Shown: in pieces, positions 35,036 to 44,341 of the stretch
Numbering within the stretch: position 1 is the stretch's first letter
Layout of the letters: each line of letters begins with the position of its first letter
Source: Gynuella sunshinyii YC6258
Lineage (GTDB): Bacteria > Pseudomonadota > Gammaproteobacteria > Pseudomonadales > Natronospirillaceae
Direction: 5' to 3'
Assembly (NCBI RefSeq): GCF_000940805.1
Contig: NZ_CP007142.1
Span: forward strand, 5,184,593-5,248,592
DNA: 64,000 bases
The notes under the pieces: model-generated
What the model was told of the DNA's origin: nothing
Seen by the model: the letters and a program-made list of their open reading frames with translations, nothing else
The model's database searches: none
Translations under genes and position numbers: made by a program

Positions 35036-35935
35036 TTATTCAGTTCGACCCGGCGGCAATACCTTCACACTGGCAGGTGCCATAATCCGCTCCAGCATTT
35101 CCATATGCTGGCGTTGCGCAGTCAACGCCGGTGCTTTCTGGTACTCCGCGTAGTTCAACATCAACCGCTGAGTATCGCCTTCCGCTTTCTCCCGTAATTC
35201 AGACACCCAGGCCTGAGACTGCAACGTGGTCCGATTGGCCTGACTGCGGGCTTCCGCCAGCCTCGAACTGCGTTCCCCCTGCTCTTCCTGTACCAGGCGC
35301 TGGCGTTCAGACCGGGCACTGTCCACATCATCGAAGGCACGTTGAATGGATCCCGGCGGATCCAGTTTCTGAATCTGTACCGCCGTTACCTTCACCCCCA
35401 GATCCAAATCATAAGCCTGCTTCTGGATCGATTGCCGCAACGTCTGCTGTAACTCGTTACGACCGGTCGTCAGCAAGGTATCAATATCCAGTTGCAGCAG
35501 ACTGACAACCGCGGAAGACATGGCAACCTGTTTCAATAATGCTTCCGGAGCCTGACTGTGAGTCGCAAAAATGCCGGGCTGCTGAATCGTATACTGAACA
35601 TTCAATACCAGATTTACCAGATTCTGGTCGCCCGTTGTCACCTCACTCTGCACGTCCACATCGCTCAGCTCATTGAAATCCAGCAGCATTGACCGAACCG
35701 ATGACACAGACAACAACTGAACGCGCTCCAGCGGCCACGGCAGGTGATAATGAATGCCCGGCGGCACCCGGTCATCAATGATACGACCAAACCGGTACAG
35801 AATGCCGGCCTGTTCGGCACCCACCGTATAAAATCCACCCAGAACATACAGCCCGGGCAACACTCCAAGTATCAACACCCATGCCAGCTTACGGGTCTGC
35901 CGCCAAACCCGGCTGACATCTGTTTCAGCGCTCAT
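35036..35935 (-). CDS. HflK-like SPFH membrane protein (third gene of CDF-SPFH operon)
   Basis: The 299-aa protein has a short cytoplasmic N-terminus, one membrane helix (LAWVLILGVLPGLYVLGGFYTV) and an SPFH/band-7 domain (GAEQAGILYRFGRIIDDRVPPGIHYHLPWPLERV, then LNVQYTI). A coiled-coil C-terminus rich in E/R/Q follows. It resembles HflK, which with HflC cages the FtsH protease in the periplasm. It lacks the Gly/Pro-rich N-terminus usual for HflK, and no hfq, hflX or purA lies nearby, so it is a paralogue of the housekeeping gene. It overlaps the HflC-like gene by 11 bp. Its partners probably include the fusion protein two genes upstream. Confidence 0.82.
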   Translation of the reverse strand: MSAETDVSRVWRQTRKLAWVLILGVLPGLYVLGGFYTVGAEQAGILYRFGRIIDDRVPPGIHYHLPWPLERVQLLSVSSVRSMLLDFNELSDVDVQSEVTTGDQNLVNLVLNVQYTIQQPGIFATHSQAPEALLKQVAMSSAVVSLLQLDIDTLLTTGRNELQQTLRQSIQKQAYDLDLGVKVTAVQIQKLDPPGSIQRAFDDVDSARSERQRLVQEEQGERSSRLAEARSQANRTTLQSQAWVSELREKAEGDTQRLMLNYAEYQKAPALTAQRQHMEMLERIMAPASVKVLPPGRTE

Positions 35936-36821
35936 GATCCGACTCCACTGGCGGGGACCAGAAGTACTTCAATAACGGCGAATCCGTCGACAATATAAAC
36001 TGAGTGTCTTTATTGAGGATTTTGTCGTAAGCATCCATCAGACGATAAAACCGATAATATTCCGCATTCTGCTGATAGGCATCCGCATAAATTTTGGCCG
36101 CCTCTGCCTCTCCCTGACCTTTGACAATCTGGCTGTCACGCCGGGCTTCCGCCAGCAGCTTGCGCACTTCCAGTTCGGTCTCAGCCTTGATACGGGCCGC
36201 CTGTTCCTGCCCTTCAGCCCGATACTGGCGAGCGATTTTCTCCCGCTCGGAGGACATGCGGTTGTAGATCGCCTTAAGATTCTGCTGCGGAAAACCAATA
36301 CGACTCGAACGTACCGCCAGAATGTCGATACCAAAGGATTCCGTTGAACGCGCCCGTACCGATTCAGTCACCCCGGCAAACAGTGATTCGGTTTGATTCT
36401 GCTCCACCTCAGCGGTCAGCAGACTGCTCAGTGGCGTACGACCAATGGCACTGCCGACCTCAGAGCCGGCCAGATCCGCGAGACGGATTTCAGCGGTGGT
36501 TGCATCCCGTACCGAGGCCAGAAACTTTTCCGGATCCTGTACCCGCCAAACCACAAAACTGCGCACCACCAGATTACGACGGTCACGGGTAACAAACTCT
36601 GCCGGCTCCAGTTGCAGCAATTGCAACCGGCTGTCGACCCGCACGGCAGTCTGGATGGGATCCGGCCATTTGAATGCCAGGCCGGAATCCGCGATGACCC
36701 GCACCGGCTTACCAAACTGAGTGATCACCACCTGCTCTGTGGCCGGAACCGCCAGCATCGAGGTCGACGCCAGATAAACCAGTACAATCAACACACCCAA
36801 AAAGATCAGATATTTTCGCAT
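35925..36821 (-). CDS. HflC-like SPFH membrane protein (second gene of CDF-SPFH operon)
   Basis: The protein (298 aa from ATG 36821) has an N-terminal anchor (RKYLIFLGVLIVLVYLASTSM), an SPFH domain (ATEQVVITQFGKPVRVIADSGLAFKWPDPIQTAVRVDSRLQ, with VVWRV) and a coiled-coil tail with RQYRAEGQEQAARIKAETE. These are HflC features. The start is set by a TAATG junction with the preceding fusion gene, so translation is coupled. A longer frame upstream would extend into that gene. Together with the flanking genes it gives three SPFH domains from one operon. Confidence 0.84.
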   Translation of the reverse strand: MRKYLIFLGVLIVLVYLASTSMLAVPATEQVVITQFGKPVRVIADSGLAFKWPDPIQTAVRVDSRLQLLQLEPAEFVTRDRRNLVVRSFVVWRVQDPEKFLASVRDATTAEIRLADLAGSEVGSAIGRTPLSSLLTAEVEQNQTESLFAGVTESVRARSTESFGIDILAVRSSRIGFPQQNLKAIYNRMSSEREKIARQYRAEGQEQAARIKAETELEVRKLLAEARRDSQIVKGQGEAEAAKIYADAYQQNAEYYRFYRLMDAYDKILNKDTQFILSTDSPLLKYFWSPPVESDHER

Positions 36822-38536
36822 TACGGCTTTAACCTTATATCCGGTAACAACACATCTTGTTTTGCCCCACCCCAAACCCGCAGATCGCGGTTATCGAATG
36901 ACTGGTCAATAATGGTCAGCTGACGATCTGCCAGGGTGTTCTGAATGTGCTCAAGATAACGATTGAATTCGATGAGTTTCGGAAATGTCCGAAAGATATC
37001 AGCCATGCTGGCGAACCTGCCGGCGTCACCCGTGGCAATAATCTGCTGTTCGAGCTGACTGGCACTGGCTTCAGAAGCCAGCAGGATTTTCTCTGCCGAA
37101 GCGGTATGTACCTGCTGAAAGTTCTCGGCTTCTGCCAACAGTTTCAAACGGACACTTTCCTGCTGTGCCACGAACATATCCCGATACAGGGCCACGGTCT
37201 GGCTGGGTGGCTGCACCTTGAGTAAACGGAGATTAAGAACATTGGCCGTCAAACCAACGGTTGCCAGAGATTGTTCAACCTGGCGCTGTATGGTCGATAA
37301 AAAATCATCCGGAACATCATTGAGCAAATCATCAAATCGATAACGGGCTACCGCCTGGGATAAAGCACTGGTCGCGTAAGCATTGATCATCGCCTCGATC
37401 TGATTGGCCGAGGTCCACTGCCGGCCCCAATCACTCAACTGATATTGCATGGCCAGGGTGACGTTGACCAGGGCCTCATCAGCGGTGATGAAGTGCTCGG
37501 TGATATCGCGCGGTTCATCAGTGGATTCACGCCACTGCTGCCACAACAAAGGACTGCCCGACTGCTCAACCGTCAGCGGTGTACCAATCAGTGCGCGATG
37601 CACTTGTTGTTGCGATAACTGTTTTATCGCCCCCACCGGCCACGGCCAATGGTAATGCAGCCCGGTATCGAGCGGCTCTCCCACGACCCGTGCAAACACC
37701 AGTTTGACACCCACATAACCAAGTGGCACCTGAGTAATGCCCGATGCGGCATACAACAGCAGCAGACCAACGACATACAACACCGGAGGAACCCTTCTGA
37801 CACCCCCCCAGCAGCGCCAGACAGTGTCAACCAGCTTCTGCCCCGCAACCGACTTCTGCAGCAACGAAAAAAAAGCATCCGAAGCTGATAACTGCACCAG
37901 CTCCTGACCCAATAGCAGACTTCGAAGACCGGAAATCAATAACTCTATACCGGCAATACCTACCAGTACGGCAATCAGCACCGCCACCAGGTGATCGAGA
38001 TACAAGCCCATCAGCAATCCCACAAACGACAGCAGCACCGCCATCGACGACAGCACATCCAGGTGACTATGATAACCATCGGCTTCCAACGCGGGTGATT
38101 GGGTGTCGCGCCCAACGGAGGTTTTTAACTGAGCCATAAAATAGGCAACGAGAATCGTGATCAGCACACCAATGATGCCAACCCAGATGCCACTGACACT
38201 TTCTGCTGCGCTGGCACCGGCCTGACGCACCTGGCTGATAATCTCGTATGGGACATACAAAATACTCAGCGCCACAAACAGCGCCATCACGGACTCAATC
38301 CGATAGACTTTTTCGACACCGCTGGCTGCCACCTTGCGCTCTTGTAAATGACGAATAACCAGACTGGCCAGCAGCACCAGTGAGACCAGTAGATCTGTCC
38401 CTGAATGCAGAGCATCAGCCCATAGCGCCTTACTACCGGTAAACACAGCGAGTCCGGCTTTCAGTCCGATCAACAGACTATCTGCGGCTATGGCGACAAG
38501 GGAGGTACGAATACGGCGATCAGACAAAAACGACAT
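36821..38536 (-). CDS. cation diffusion facilitator fused to an SPFH (HflK-like) domain
   Basis: The 571-aa protein joins two families. Residues 1-210 are a six-helix CDF transporter with both metal motifs intact: HxxxD at 44-48 (DALHSGTD) and DxxHxxxD at 153-160 (DGYHSHLD). In place of the usual CDF cytoplasmic domain, a seventh membrane helix (251-268) leads into an SPFH domain from about 270 (VPLGYVGVKLVFARVVGEPLDTGLHYHWPWPVG). A coiled coil with VAQQESVRLKLLAEAENFQQ ends the protein. CDF proteins export Zn2+, Fe2+ or Mn2+; SPFH proteins form ring scaffolds. By topology the SPFH domain should be periplasmic, as in HflK. It is first in an operon with two more SPFH genes. Confidence 0.85.
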   Translation of the reverse strand: MSFLSDRRIRTSLVAIAADSLLIGLKAGLAVFTGSKALWADALHSGTDLLVSLVLLASLVIRHLQERKVAASGVEKVYRIESVMALFVALSILYVPYEIISQVRQAGASAAESVSGIWVGIIGVLITILVAYFMAQLKTSVGRDTQSPALEADGYHSHLDVLSSMAVLLSFVGLLMGLYLDHLVAVLIAVLVGIAGIELLISGLRSLLLGQELVQLSASDAFFSLLQKSVAGQKLVDTVWRCWGGVRRVPPVLYVVGLLLLYAASGITQVPLGYVGVKLVFARVVGEPLDTGLHYHWPWPVGAIKQLSQQQVHRALIGTPLTVEQSGSPLLWQQWRESTDEPRDITEHFITADEALVNVTLAMQYQLSDWGRQWTSANQIEAMINAYATSALSQAVARYRFDDLLNDVPDDFLSTIQRQVEQSLATVGLTANVLNLRLLKVQPPSQTVALYRDMFVAQQESVRLKLLAEAENFQQVHTASAEKILLASEASASQLEQQIIATGDAGRFASMADIFRTFPKLIEFNRYLEHIQNTLADRQLTIIDQSFDNRDLRVWGGAKQDVLLPDIRLKP

Positions 38537-38707
38537 GGAATGAGAATGATTGGCAACCTGATTTCTGACAGGCTACCAATCCAATATGACACAACCATGA
38601 CAATGTCATGAATTCGTCACATTATGTTCTTTTCGGTGCTTCGCCGCTGTCCCCGTTGAGAAACAGCAGCGTGCAGGTTTTCGCCTCTGACGGACGAAAA
38701 TCAATGA

Positions 38708-40415: not shown

Positions 40416-42134
40416 TTAACGGGCCGAGAGGATTTGTGTCAGACCGGTTTTATCGCCATCTTCCAGAGTCTGATGAACCGTATCAAACAAGGGCTCAATC
40501 ACGCCATCACGCCCCTCAACATAGCTCTGCTCATTGACGATCACCTTATATGCCTTGTTCAACATAATGGCACGTTCAGGGCTCGGCACCAGCAGCTCGC
40601 TGATATCGGTTCGCAATCTCGCAAACGCATCAGGTTTCGGCTGACCGTATTGATCGAAAAACCGGGCAATCACCTCATCATTGGTACGGAACTCGTTGCC
40701 CGATAAATTAGCCTTCAGATAATAACTGTACTCTGGCTCACCATCGGACTCGCGCAATGGATCAGGAATGCCGGCAAGGCCTTTTTCCTGCCAGTGATAC
40801 CAGCCAGACCGATAGGCCTCAAAATCAAACTTACGGTCGAACGCAAACGTAGTGTCCACCGTGACCCCGATACCACCATGGCAGCCAAGACAGAACCCGT
40901 GCTCTTCATAGGTTTGGGGGCGTAATTGTCCGTCTTTTTCTTCGATAAATCCCTGCAACACCCAACCCTGAAGGTTTTCCACCCCCTCTTCCGGATTACC
41001 ATAAATGGTTTTAGTGCGCGCGGGAAAATCATGGCGTTCCTTGGTTTCGTTATCCGCAATTACCCGATTGTCATAATAATTACGCCACAGTTTTTTACGG
41101 GAATAACGCAACTCTTTCATCCGCGGTGCCAGCACCACCTCATCACTGGCATTCACATCCAGATAACGGACGCTGTGCAAAAATTCAGTTCCCAGTGGAT
41201 ACAATCCACCAGATAAATGCTCATCCCCTTTCTCAAACAACACCCTGGCCTTGCCAACATAAGACATAAAGTGCTTTTCCTTGGGTGCCCAGTCATAGGT
41301 CACCTGAGTGGCCGTCGCCAGTTGACCATCTTTATCCAGATCAACCTTGAGCACCCGCTCATCCACAGCGGCAATACCCACATTCCGGCGCTTGATTAAG
41401 GCCTCTACAATCGCCAGATTCACTTTATACACCTGCAGATCAAACTGTCCGGCCTCATTCTGCTGAAAACGCTCCGGCAGCCGGATCATCACATCATCCA
41501 TGGAACCATTGGTCGGCATAAAGGTGCCCGGGAAAGGATAATACGCAAACACCCGCCAGCCGCTGTAATCACCATTGGGTTTATGATCAAAGCCATCCTG
41601 ATCAAAGTGATAATACATATCCGGCGTATAACCATCCCACTGGCCATTCTGATTCACATCCCACTGCGGCAGGTTGTTCTGAATACGCTGCGCCAACAGC
41701 AACTGACCATTGGCATCGATATAATTACTCTCCTTCACATAATCCATCATGCTCAAGTCCGACATCATGGCAACTTCATGAGTTCTGTCCTTAAACAGAT
41801 TGGCCCAGTGATTTTCACTCGCCGGTTCCGGTAATGTCAGTTCAACCTGAAGACCGCTGTCATCCAGATAGTTAGGCGCCTTATTTTGGGTATGACAGAT
41901 ATAACAGGGGTTATGACCATAACCATGACTGTCGATGGTCTTGGTATAACACTGCGGCACCAGATACGAGGTAGGATTATGCAGCGCCGTAGATGCCAAC
42001 CGGGCATCCACCTTGCCCAATACCGGGGCCACGGCGGCTTTTGGCTCAGGGTTCTGAACCGGATCGGAGGATTCACAAGCGGACAAAACCGCCATCATTG
42101 CGAGACACACAAAACTGAAGGGATGTTTGATCAT
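40416..42134 (-). CDS. diheme c-type cytochrome lipoprotein
   Basis: From ATG 42134 the protein has 572 aa. It begins with a lipoprotein signal (MIKHPFSFVCLAMMAVLSAC, lipobox Cys20). Two c-type heme sites are present, CYICH at 77-81 and CLGCH at 415-419. The intervening region is rich in aromatics and acidic loops (DVNQNGQWDGYTPDMYYHFDQDGFDHKPNGDY). An upstream start would bury the signal peptide, so I reject it. It should be an outer-membrane or periplasm-facing electron carrier or oxidoreductase. It follows the PhoX-like gene by 82 bp on the same strand, and they may work together. Its reaction is unknown. Confidence 0.75.
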   Translation of the reverse strand: MIKHPFSFVCLAMMAVLSACESSDPVQNPEPKAAVAPVLGKVDARLASTALHNPTSYLVPQCYTKTIDSHGYGHNPCYICHTQNKAPNYLDDSGLQVELTLPEPASENHWANLFKDRTHEVAMMSDLSMMDYVKESNYIDANGQLLLAQRIQNNLPQWDVNQNGQWDGYTPDMYYHFDQDGFDHKPNGDYSGWRVFAYYPFPGTFMPTNGSMDDVMIRLPERFQQNEAGQFDLQVYKVNLAIVEALIKRRNVGIAAVDERVLKVDLDKDGQLATATQVTYDWAPKEKHFMSYVGKARVLFEKGDEHLSGGLYPLGTEFLHSVRYLDVNASDEVVLAPRMKELRYSRKKLWRNYYDNRVIADNETKERHDFPARTKTIYGNPEEGVENLQGWVLQGFIEEKDGQLRPQTYEEHGFCLGCHGGIGVTVDTTFAFDRKFDFEAYRSGWYHWQEKGLAGIPDPLRESDGEPEYSYYLKANLSGNEFRTNDEVIARFFDQYGQPKPDAFARLRTDISELLVPSPERAIMLNKAYKVIVNEQSYVEGRDGVIEPLFDTVHQTLEDGDKTGLTQILSAR

Positions 42135-42216
42135 GGAATTATTCTTACAGAAAAAGGAGTTCAGATAGCTCTGAACTCCGAACGCGATTAACCTCGACAT
42201 TAATCGAATGTTTTTA

Positions 42217-44052
42217 CTATTTCATTTTCTTGGCAGGAAACGGTCCAATATATCCGGTGTAAGCCGCTGCTTCACCATGACCGGTGTTCTTGTCTTCATC
42301 AGACTCGCCATAAGGATGCTGTACCACGCTCATCAGATACGCCCAACCGTTGATATCAGGGTACCAGTAAGGAGAAGTGGTCTCAGAACCGTAAGGAGTC
42401 GTTTCAATACGAGTCAGTTGAGAAGTTTTCAGGTTATACGCCCAGATTGCGTCATTCTGGTGACCAGAACCGGTATCTTCACCGATGATCAAGGTGTCAT
42501 AACCGCTCATGTACGTCAGGTTATCAGGGTTGGCGATACCATTGATATGACAGCTGTTGTTCGCCTCAAAACCTTTAACCTGTGGCGCACGGTCAGTCAC
42601 AGGACGCCCCACCACCAGACCGGTCATGCTTTTCACGACATAGTCAGAACCGATATTTTTGTCTGTTCCAACCGGCAACTGATACACAGCACCACACTTA
42701 TTAGGGCTATCCAGACGAATGTCATTCGATCCACCCAGGTCATAAGACTTGCTTGGCTTACCGCCTTTTTTGAAGTCTTCCATGCCACGCTCAACTTCAG
42801 ACATAGCCATGAAAATACTGTTGTATTCCGGCGCAAAGGTAATGCCTTCTTCTTTCCGGAACTCTGTGGTCGCACCCATCATCGCGGCATAACGACGAGA
42901 TTCCAGACGTGAAGCCACTTTCTCCATACCCGGCTTGACCTGCAGACACTCAAAACCGTAACCACCCGTGTTCACACCGGTAAAGCCCGTTGGGCACTGA
43001 CCCTCTTTACTGCCTTCAGCAGTTGCGAAGATATCATCGAAGGTGACTTTCTTAGGACCATCCAGATAAGGTTTGATCTCTTCATCGGTCGCATGACCCA
43101 GATTGATCCATTCGATATCCGCTGCACCCACGCCGTAAGAACTGGTTTGATTCCACTTCAGGGCATACAAAGTACCGGCAGACAAATCTTTCTTCTTATC
43201 AGCCACAAACATGAACAGGCTGACGTTAGTACCGTCATCAGTGATATAAGCCGTTTTCTGATCCGGCATAACATACGCCAGCTCAATCGCCATACGGCCC
43301 ATGGCAAAGTGTTTTTCAATCGTTGTGGTGGGATCGCTCTTACCCTTGGCCTTAACCGTGATTTCAGTGTTCCAGCCATAATAATAAGGGTTCCACTCCA
43401 TACCGCTGGTGTAATAATCCAACTGGGTTTTGGAGTAATCGTCTTTAGCCACATCGGCATTGGTTTTCAGTACCGCCGCATTCGGCTCATATTCTTCTGA
43501 TGCCAGATGAGTGTTCCAAGGCGTTACCGACGCCGCACAATGCACCCAACCACCCCAGGTATTGGACTGATCCAACTGCCACTGATTAATCGGTGTCAGC
43601 TCACCGGTTTTTTTATTCTGATCCAGCTCCAGCAGGAAGAACGCACCCGGACGGGTTTCATGCTGGGAAACAGAGAACAAGCGCTTACCAACAGGCAACA
43701 AAGACGTGTGCTCATTGGCATTGGAAATTCTGATTTCACCGTCTTCGCCGCGGATAGGATTACCATCGGCATCGATAATCTGACCAAACTTAATACCATT
43801 CAGCTCCTGACCAGAGCGCATCAACGTATGAAAACCAAAATTGGCAACGGGCTGGCCATCGATCTCAGCCGCAGAAACACGCACTTCACGCTTTTCTGCA
43901 TCCGTCAGTGGAGCCGAAACACCATCGAAAGTCAGGACCGCGTCGGCGCCCAGCTTCTTGGCGGCATATGCAGCTGTTGCCACAGACATGCCAACAACGC
44001 CAGCCAGCGCAACGGCAACCGCCAGGCCCTTCACAGCAAATTGCTTGTTCAT
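42217..44052 (-). CDS. PhoX-like (DUF839) exported protein
   Basis: The 611-aa protein starts at ATG 44052, with AGGAG 8-12 nt upstream, and has a Sec-type signal ending VATAAYA. The body shows the PhoX/DUF839 signature HCAASVTPWNTHLASEEYEP, NANEHTSLLPVG, AIELAYVMPDQKTAYITDDG and DNLTYMSGYDTLIIGEDTG. PhoX enzymes are calcium/iron phosphatases exported by Tat. Here no twin-arginine motif is visible, so export should be by Sec and phosphatase function is uncertain. It may share a transcript with the diheme lipoprotein. Confidence 0.82.
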   Translation of the reverse strand: MNKQFAVKGLAVAVALAGVVGMSVATAAYAAKKLGADAVLTFDGVSAPLTDAEKREVRVSAAEIDGQPVANFGFHTLMRSGQELNGIKFGQIIDADGNPIRGEDGEIRISNANEHTSLLPVGKRLFSVSQHETRPGAFFLLELDQNKKTGELTPINQWQLDQSNTWGGWVHCAASVTPWNTHLASEEYEPNAAVLKTNADVAKDDYSKTQLDYYTSGMEWNPYYYGWNTEITVKAKGKSDPTTTIEKHFAMGRMAIELAYVMPDQKTAYITDDGTNVSLFMFVADKKKDLSAGTLYALKWNQTSSYGVGAADIEWINLGHATDEEIKPYLDGPKKVTFDDIFATAEGSKEGQCPTGFTGVNTGGYGFECLQVKPGMEKVASRLESRRYAAMMGATTEFRKEEGITFAPEYNSIFMAMSEVERGMEDFKKGGKPSKSYDLGGSNDIRLDSPNKCGAVYQLPVGTDKNIGSDYVVKSMTGLVVGRPVTDRAPQVKGFEANNSCHINGIANPDNLTYMSGYDTLIIGEDTGSGHQNDAIWAYNLKTSQLTRIETTPYGSETTSPYWYPDINGWAYLMSVVQHPYGESDEDKNTGHGEAAAYTGYIGPFPAKKMK

Positions 44053-44341
44053 GGAAAGTACTCCTAAATTATTGTGCTGCACGAATTGCAGTCTTGTAGT
44101 CGGGGGAAATCCGAGTCGTTCAAATATCCGGATGGCGACACACTAAAGGGAAAAAATGACAGAAATATTGCAGAACGCTGACAAGATGGCATTTCAGCCA
44201 GAAAATCCAAAAACGCCCGGATTTGCCCCGAAAACCAGCCAAACCCCACAATCCAGGGAGCTTGCAACCCTCACCAGGCCCTAAACGACGTGAAACAAAC
44301 CCTTTTAAATCAAAGCACTAGCACTTCGGCAAAAGCCCCGT

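Follow-up and report, generated by a model that had tools for sequence, protein, structure and literature searches.

For most bacterial SPFH complexes there is, to our knowledge, no agreement on either cargo or function. The described systems closest to the one considered here are the HflK/HflC (SPFH3) cage that surrounds FtsH in Escherichia coli, CDF metal transporters such as YiiP/FieF and ZnT, an SPFH oligomer of red cells associated with membrane transporters, and the PA2434-PA2439 region of Pseudomonas aeruginosa. Here we analysed a stretch of 64,000 nucleotides from Gynuella sunshinyii YC6258 (contig NZ_CP007142.1, positions 5,184,593 to 5,248,592; the whole stretch is hereafter called the window), which carries an operon of three SPFH genes, the first of which encodes, in a single frame, a CDF transporter fused to an HflK-type SPFH domain. 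We propose, at a probability of roughly 0.55, that the products of this triad assemble into a heteromeric SPFH dome in the periplasm, which has metal transporters built into it and functions in Zn/Cu homeostasis.

Published work on the Pseudomonas region provides the physiological data that bear on this proposal. Three SPFH genes of P. aeruginosa have been named paFlo5-6-7 (PMC13086221), and gene order and annotation suggest that they correspond to PA2437-PA2439. PA2434, PA2435 and PA2437-PA2439 are up 5.6-14.4-fold in a znuA mutant (PMC4542158), the PA2439 promoter is bound by Zur when zinc is present (PMC8531726), and proteins of the PA2434-PA2439 region increase in zinc-depleted cells (PMC11761036). 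The P1B ATPase of the region, HmtA, is reported to import Zn/Cu (PMC8456098); a zinc-dependent repression of hmtA mRNA was not observed (PMC8531726). Deletion of paFlo5-7 gave small phenotypes, and the deletion tests consulted were carried out without metal stress (PMC13086221).

Architecture of the fusion protein and its operon

The three genes lie on the minus strand. The fusion gene (571 amino acids (aa); 36821-38536), delimited by its open reading frame, Pfam matches, a predicted model and 24 full-length relatives, is followed by genes for an HflC-like protein (298 aa; 35925-36821) and an HflK-like protein (299 aa; 35036-35935). Band_7 is the sole Pfam domain in the latter two proteins, which score above the corresponding NCBI cut-offs (TIGR01932 hflC, 190.8 bits against 134.4; TIGR01933 hflK, 164.1 bits against 159.4). 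As originally predicted, the genes overlap: the start codon of the HflC-like gene lies within the stop codon of the fusion (TAATG, a 1-nt overlap), and the HflC-like and HflK-like genes share 11 nt. The genome is a single contig of 6.48 Mb and the frame of the fusion is open, with no frameshift at the junction.

The N-terminal part of the fusion (residues 13-208; 37913-38500, minus strand) is a CDF transmembrane domain, matching Pfam Cation_efflux (PF01545) with an E-value of 9.6e-26 and 91.2 bits against a cut-off of 26.6. Both metal-site motifs of the CDF family are in place, namely HSGTD at residues 44-48 (site A, H44-D48; 38393-38407, minus strand) and HSHLD at residues 156-160 (site B, H156-D160; 38057-38071, minus strand). 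An added seventh membrane helix (residues 249-267; 37736-37792, minus strand) is indicated by hydropathy, by a helix at residues 251-264 of the predicted model and by loop charges, and leads into an SPFH/Band_7 domain (residues 269-470; 37127-37732, minus strand; Pfam E-value 3e-16). Lysine and arginine counts in the loops are consistent with a cytoplasmic N-terminus and an SPFH domain on the outer side of the membrane. Towards the C-terminus, the model predicts helices at residues 448-517 and 519-534 (36935-37195, minus strand), which correspond to the coiled-coil region of HflK.

This model, computed with AlphaFold2 from a 20-row alignment, has a mean predicted local distance difference test (pLDDT) score of 78.5 and a predicted template modelling (pTM) score of 0.46, and contains in order six CDF helices, a linker, the seventh helix, the SPFH domain and a long helix. 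Residues 1-211 of the model match YiiP (8f6k_B) with a Z-score of 23.2 and a root-mean-square deviation (rmsd) of 2.6 over 200 aligned residues, and residues 249-549 match HflK (7vhq_E) with a Z-score of 16.0 over 267 aligned residues; the large rmsd of the latter match, 10.5, is due to domain placement. A profile built from the fusions matched E. coli HflK at 8.1e-70 and FieF at 5.5e-15. A C-terminal cytoplasmic dimer domain is usual, though not universal, in the CDF family. In the fusion no Pfam dimer-domain match was found, and a linker and the SPFH domain follow residue 212 instead. The match to FieF/YiiP is confined to the transmembrane part, ending at residue 212; the dimer domain is therefore absent. 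The original prediction had described a complete CDF transporter with both HxxxD sites, a seventh helix leading to an HflK-like periplasmic SPFH domain, and the loss of the CDF dimer domain, and this description is borne out by the profile, fold, hydropathy and loop-charge data.

Distribution of the fusion

Single-frame CDF-SPFH fusions were recovered from at least 25 genomes, including that of G. sunshinyii. This number is a lower bound, since the scan of GTDB release 220 (one genome per species, to which a plasmid of Aquibium oceanicum was added) used two short peptide patterns. The hosts include Gamma- and Alphaproteobacteria, Chloroflexota, Planctomycetota, Lentisphaerota and Synergistota. 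In all 25 cases both HxxxD motifs are kept and the next gene on the same strand is HflC-like, followed by an HflK-like gene except where the contig ends (L046). Thus, relatives retain the fusion and the triad instead of two separate, unlinked genes. Because the fusion recurs in 24 other genomes, an assembly or frameshift artefact can be rejected, and the fusion operon is confirmed as real.

Closer to G. sunshinyii, the fusion was not found in the 21 sampled relatives of the same family; one was detected in another family of the same order (genome G193, loci L026/L102), at ~40% identity. The search of relatives, an order-wide HflC search and a whole-genome count of hflC returned mostly canonical HflK/HflC and ordinary CDFs. 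The fusion in Aquibium is annotated in the database solely as 'FtsH protease activity modulator HflK', so that its transporter half is hidden by the annotation.

Other transporters joined to the same SPFH lineage

Long proteins matching the scan by their SPFH half only revealed that, in relatives from several phyla, the HflK-type domain is also fused to two further kinds of transporter. Eleven loci (L051, L052, L053, L055, L056, L057, L059, L061, L062, L063 and L096) encode fusions to a P1B metal ATPase, some assigned by family searches (Pfam or NCBIfam) and the rest by the CPx and DKTGT motifs, length and similarity; both motifs are retained in all 11. Five others (L072, L073, L081, L089 and L146) encode fusions to an SO_0444-type Cu/Zn permease. 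NCBIfam was run on three of these: the ArsP_1-type permeases of L073, L089 and L146 pass the cut-off for the 'SO_0444 family Cu/Zn efflux transporter', and those of L072 and L081 were placed by Pfam or by similarity and helix pattern. The complete triad is present in the five permease loci and in seven ATPase loci, the other ATPase loci being interrupted by a contig end or lacking one recovered partner; where the contig allows, the gene order is the same as in the CDF triad.

The last transport helix of the fused ATPases carries HQx(A/S)S or a close variant, whereas neighbouring canonical P1B ATPases mostly have DTGAT, and judging from these motifs the SPFH-fused enzymes possibly constitute a distinct P1B subgroup. 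CPC is combined with HQxxS in the SPFH-fused ATPases at L051:6006-9065, L053:1508-4525 and L057:3782-6847.

In a tree of HflK-type sequences (quick method, 67 rows), the domains fused to all three kinds of transporter cluster with the partner HflK-like proteins, apart from canonical HflK, with a Shimodaira-Hasegawa-like approximate likelihood ratio test (SH-aLRT) support of 96. The HflC subunits of the triads form one clade in the quick tree (support 96). In a mixture-model tree canonical HflC is set apart (95/84), but the single triad clade was not recovered there, and the approximately unbiased test did not reject it (p-AU 0.134). A single origin of the triad is accordingly likely from these phylogenies, though unproven, because the HflK-type domains group together but the mixture-model HflC tree lacks a single clade.

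Relationship to the Pseudomonas operon

A Pseudomonadaceae-like genome (L147) carries three SPFH genes and, downstream with an overlap, a gene for an unfused P1B ATPase; this layout apparently corresponds to P. aeruginosa PA2439-PA2435 (paFlo5-6-7 and hmtA). The HflC-like protein of this locus (L147:7584-8639) has a strongly His-rich N-terminus, with 16 His in 30 residues. Among the genes surrounding the window's triad there is no linked P1B ATPase of the HmtA type; the window has the fused CDF domain instead. Two closer links were considered and not upheld: the N-terminus of PaFlo5-like proteins is too weakly similar to be read as a degenerate CDF domain (hhalign probability 0.7, E-value 0.085), and the HmtA-like ATPase sits on a long branch, so that its placement as kin of the fused ATPases was not settled by the tree.

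The published induction of the Pseudomonas relative suggests, by analogy, that supply or redistribution of metal is a better description of its role than detoxification. The original prediction had envisaged metal efflux as one possible purpose of the operon. Simple efflux is doubtful in this role, given that zinc shortage induces the Pseudomonas operon and that the ATPase encoded there is reported to import metal.

Metal-related signals and gene neighbourhood

Segments with 11-16 His per 30 residues, compared with a canonical median of 2, are found in triad components of four kinds: an HflC-like protein (L147), HflK-like proteins (L051 and L063), the linker between ATPase and SPFH domain (L052, L055 and L056) and a permease loop (L146). 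The neighbours of alphaproteobacterial and Chloroflexota triads include a two-component system, a peptidyl-prolyl isomerase, an HMA-bearing P1B ATPase, PCuAC, CopM, SCO1/SenC and Nramp.

In five gammaproteobacterial genera, that of the window included, two other genes lie near the triad. The first encodes in the window a protein of 594 aa that belongs to no Pfam family and bears a pair of haem c-type motifs, CYICH and CLGCH (40416-42200, minus strand); its model (mean pLDDT 38.8) is unusable for fold assignment. The second encodes a secreted protein of the PhoX family (621 aa; 42217-44082, minus strand; PF05787, E-value 1.6e-19). The two proteins may be metalloprotein clients, or else mere neighbours. 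Upstream of the start codon of the fusion we identified a candidate operator, an imperfect dyad (38583-38623, no strand assigned; core CATGACAATGTCATG) with 20-nt arms that are 75% complementary and 1 nt apart.

Elsewhere, the CDF fusion of G193 is immediately preceded by a gene for an AAA+ ATPase of non-FtsH type (L102:11883-13376), and two ferredoxin-bearing ParA/MinD-type ATPase genes (L086:6239-7132 and L086:10900-11850) flank the CDF-SPFH triad on a contig of Candidatus Abyssobacteria. The scanned loci also contain an HflK/HflC-like pair followed by a short open reading frame with an FtsH-like N-terminal start, as judged by eye (L149:6571-8150). In two genomes, a second hflK-hflC-like pair, neither canonical nor of the triad type, stands beside a gene that by eye resembles an NhaA-type antiporter (L113:8884-10931, in a genome of 3.63 Mb, and L116:4963-8473).

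A possible transport dome and its alternatives

On the reading we favour, the operon encodes a variant of the HflK/HflC-type membrane dome into which metal transporters are covalently built. By analogy with the E. coli cage, HflC-like subunits would alternate with HflK-type ones, the HflK positions being shared between the plain HflK-like protein and the fusion. The N-terminal Zn-type CDF transporter of the fusion would replace the cytoplasmic tail of HflK, and SPFH oligomerisation would cluster the transporters, plausibly making up for the lost CDF dimer domain. The metal, which is most likely Zn2+, would then traverse the inner membrane at the dome, beside or into its periplasmic lumen; if the usual CDF direction from cytoplasm to periplasm applies, it would be released at or inside the dome. 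The purpose would be Zn/Cu homeostasis, with metal transport taking place in a local compartment and perhaps supplying periplasmic metalloproteins.

The original prediction had also suggested a cage that contains metal transporters. The idea is strengthened because two unrelated types of Cu/Zn transporter share the SPFH lineage and the gene order of the CDF triad; the cage itself we infer, as we do its assembly, lumen, client proteins, and the identity and direction of the metal. A broader and more tentative extension, which we would not yet back at even odds, is a general class of SPFH 'transport domes', in which metal transporters from at least three unrelated superfamilies (CDF, P1B ATPase, SO_0444 permease) occupy the same HflK-type slot of a dedicated HflC/HflK lineage, and the resulting membrane-bounded periplasmic chamber takes up or releases Zn/Cu and delivers metal to client metalloproteins.

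Several observations weigh against a dome of this kind. The fusion scores under the NCBIfam HflK equivalog cut-off (73.4 against 159.4 bits) and under that of the CDF superfamily model TIGR01297 (76 against 82.35 bits, in an alignment confined to the first 201 of its 285 positions). It is also rare in the genomes sampled, being present in 2 of 391 from the order and in 1 of 398 from the phylum, where the remaining matches of the sample were SPFH-only. The SPFH proteins of Pseudomonas are very distant in sequence from those of the window, and the first of them shows no clear transporter domain, its membrane region being devoid of HxxxD motifs. No Zur-type palindrome above chance was found in the window. 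Finally, HmtA is described as an importer and CDFs normally export, so that a common direction of transport is unproven.

Among the other explanations, the SPFH oligomers could merely cluster exporters in a membrane microdomain, raising the efflux of excess Zn, Cu or Cd with no functional lumen. Such a detoxification scaffold draws on the fact that the CDF, P1B and SO_0444 families are exporters for the most part, and on the ZntA-like or HMA-bearing P1B ATPases that adjoin some triads. We nevertheless hold it unlikely, given that the P. aeruginosa relative responds to a shortage of zinc rather than an excess, and that a separate ordinary CDF is encoded elsewhere in the window's genome.

It is also rather improbable that the triad is a metal-responsive modulator of FtsH, that is, a variant HflK/HflC cage around this zinc protease whose activity is tuned by CDF metal transport or zinc supply. 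HflK/HflC are partners of FtsH in E. coli, and all 18 triad genomes tested encode FtsH, mostly as one copy (one in the window's genome), but the protease is near-universal and its presence hence of little informative value. No M41 protease gene adjoins any triad examined, a canonical-context hflK-hflC pair is located elsewhere in the window's genome, and each of the other proteins fused in place of the CDF is a metal transporter. The HflK-FtsH contact published as Arg191 did not help, as residue 191 is Ala in the E. coli sequence used and the comparison is uninterpretable. The earlier suggestion that metal transport controls an FtsH-like protease has thus gained no specific support, with no linked ftsH and mostly a single FtsH in the triad genomes.

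Very little likelihood attaches to the view that the fusion is vestigial, its CDF part having lost transport and serving as a mere membrane anchor: the CDF dimer domain is indeed missing, and the HxxxD motifs are lacking in the first Pseudomonas SPFH protein, but the HxxxD pairs are invariant in all 25 fusions across several phyla and the ATPase fusions preserve active P1B motifs (CPx, DKTGT) without exception. An assembly error or a chance fusion in one genome has practically no standing, being refuted by the recurrence of the same architecture in 24 independent genomes, besides the open frame in a single-contig genome.

If the proposed dome with built-in transporters is correct, a cargo covalently tied to the cage, with varied Cu/Zn transporters in the same slot, would offer a testable answer to the question of what some SPFH domes are for. 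It would also explain the zinc response of the three-SPFH operon of P. aeruginosa, and the chamber, if real, would represent a new way of handling metal after it has crossed the membrane.

Comparison with known systems

Literature searches for exporter-SPFH fusions, conducted in open-licence full texts, yielded no recognised description. The component families are known; in the literature searched we found neither the fused architecture nor its recurrence with three transporter types, nor its likely unity with the zinc-regulated operon of Pseudomonas.

The window's triad shares with the E. coli HflK/HflC cage the SPFH fold, the predicted periplasmic orientation and the coiled-coil region, and its HflC-like and HflK-like proteins pass the NCBI cut-offs as members of the same families. 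It differs in having three genes instead of two, in that the first HflK-type protein bears a whole CDF transporter, in lying outside the hfq-hflX-hflKC context and in belonging to an HflK-type lineage different from canonical HflK. With PA2434-PA2439 it has in common the combination of three SPFH genes and a metal transporter in one operon, but the P1B ATPase of Pseudomonas, to which metal import has been attributed, is not fused, and the first SPFH protein there is without a clear CDF domain. The fusion resembles YiiP/FieF and ZnT in its six-helix transmembrane fold and HxxxD metal sites, but where these proteins have the C-terminal dimer domain it continues into a further helix and an SPFH domain. 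In the red-cell SPFH oligomer the membrane transporters are separate, non-covalent cargo, while in the window the transporter lies within the SPFH polypeptide itself.

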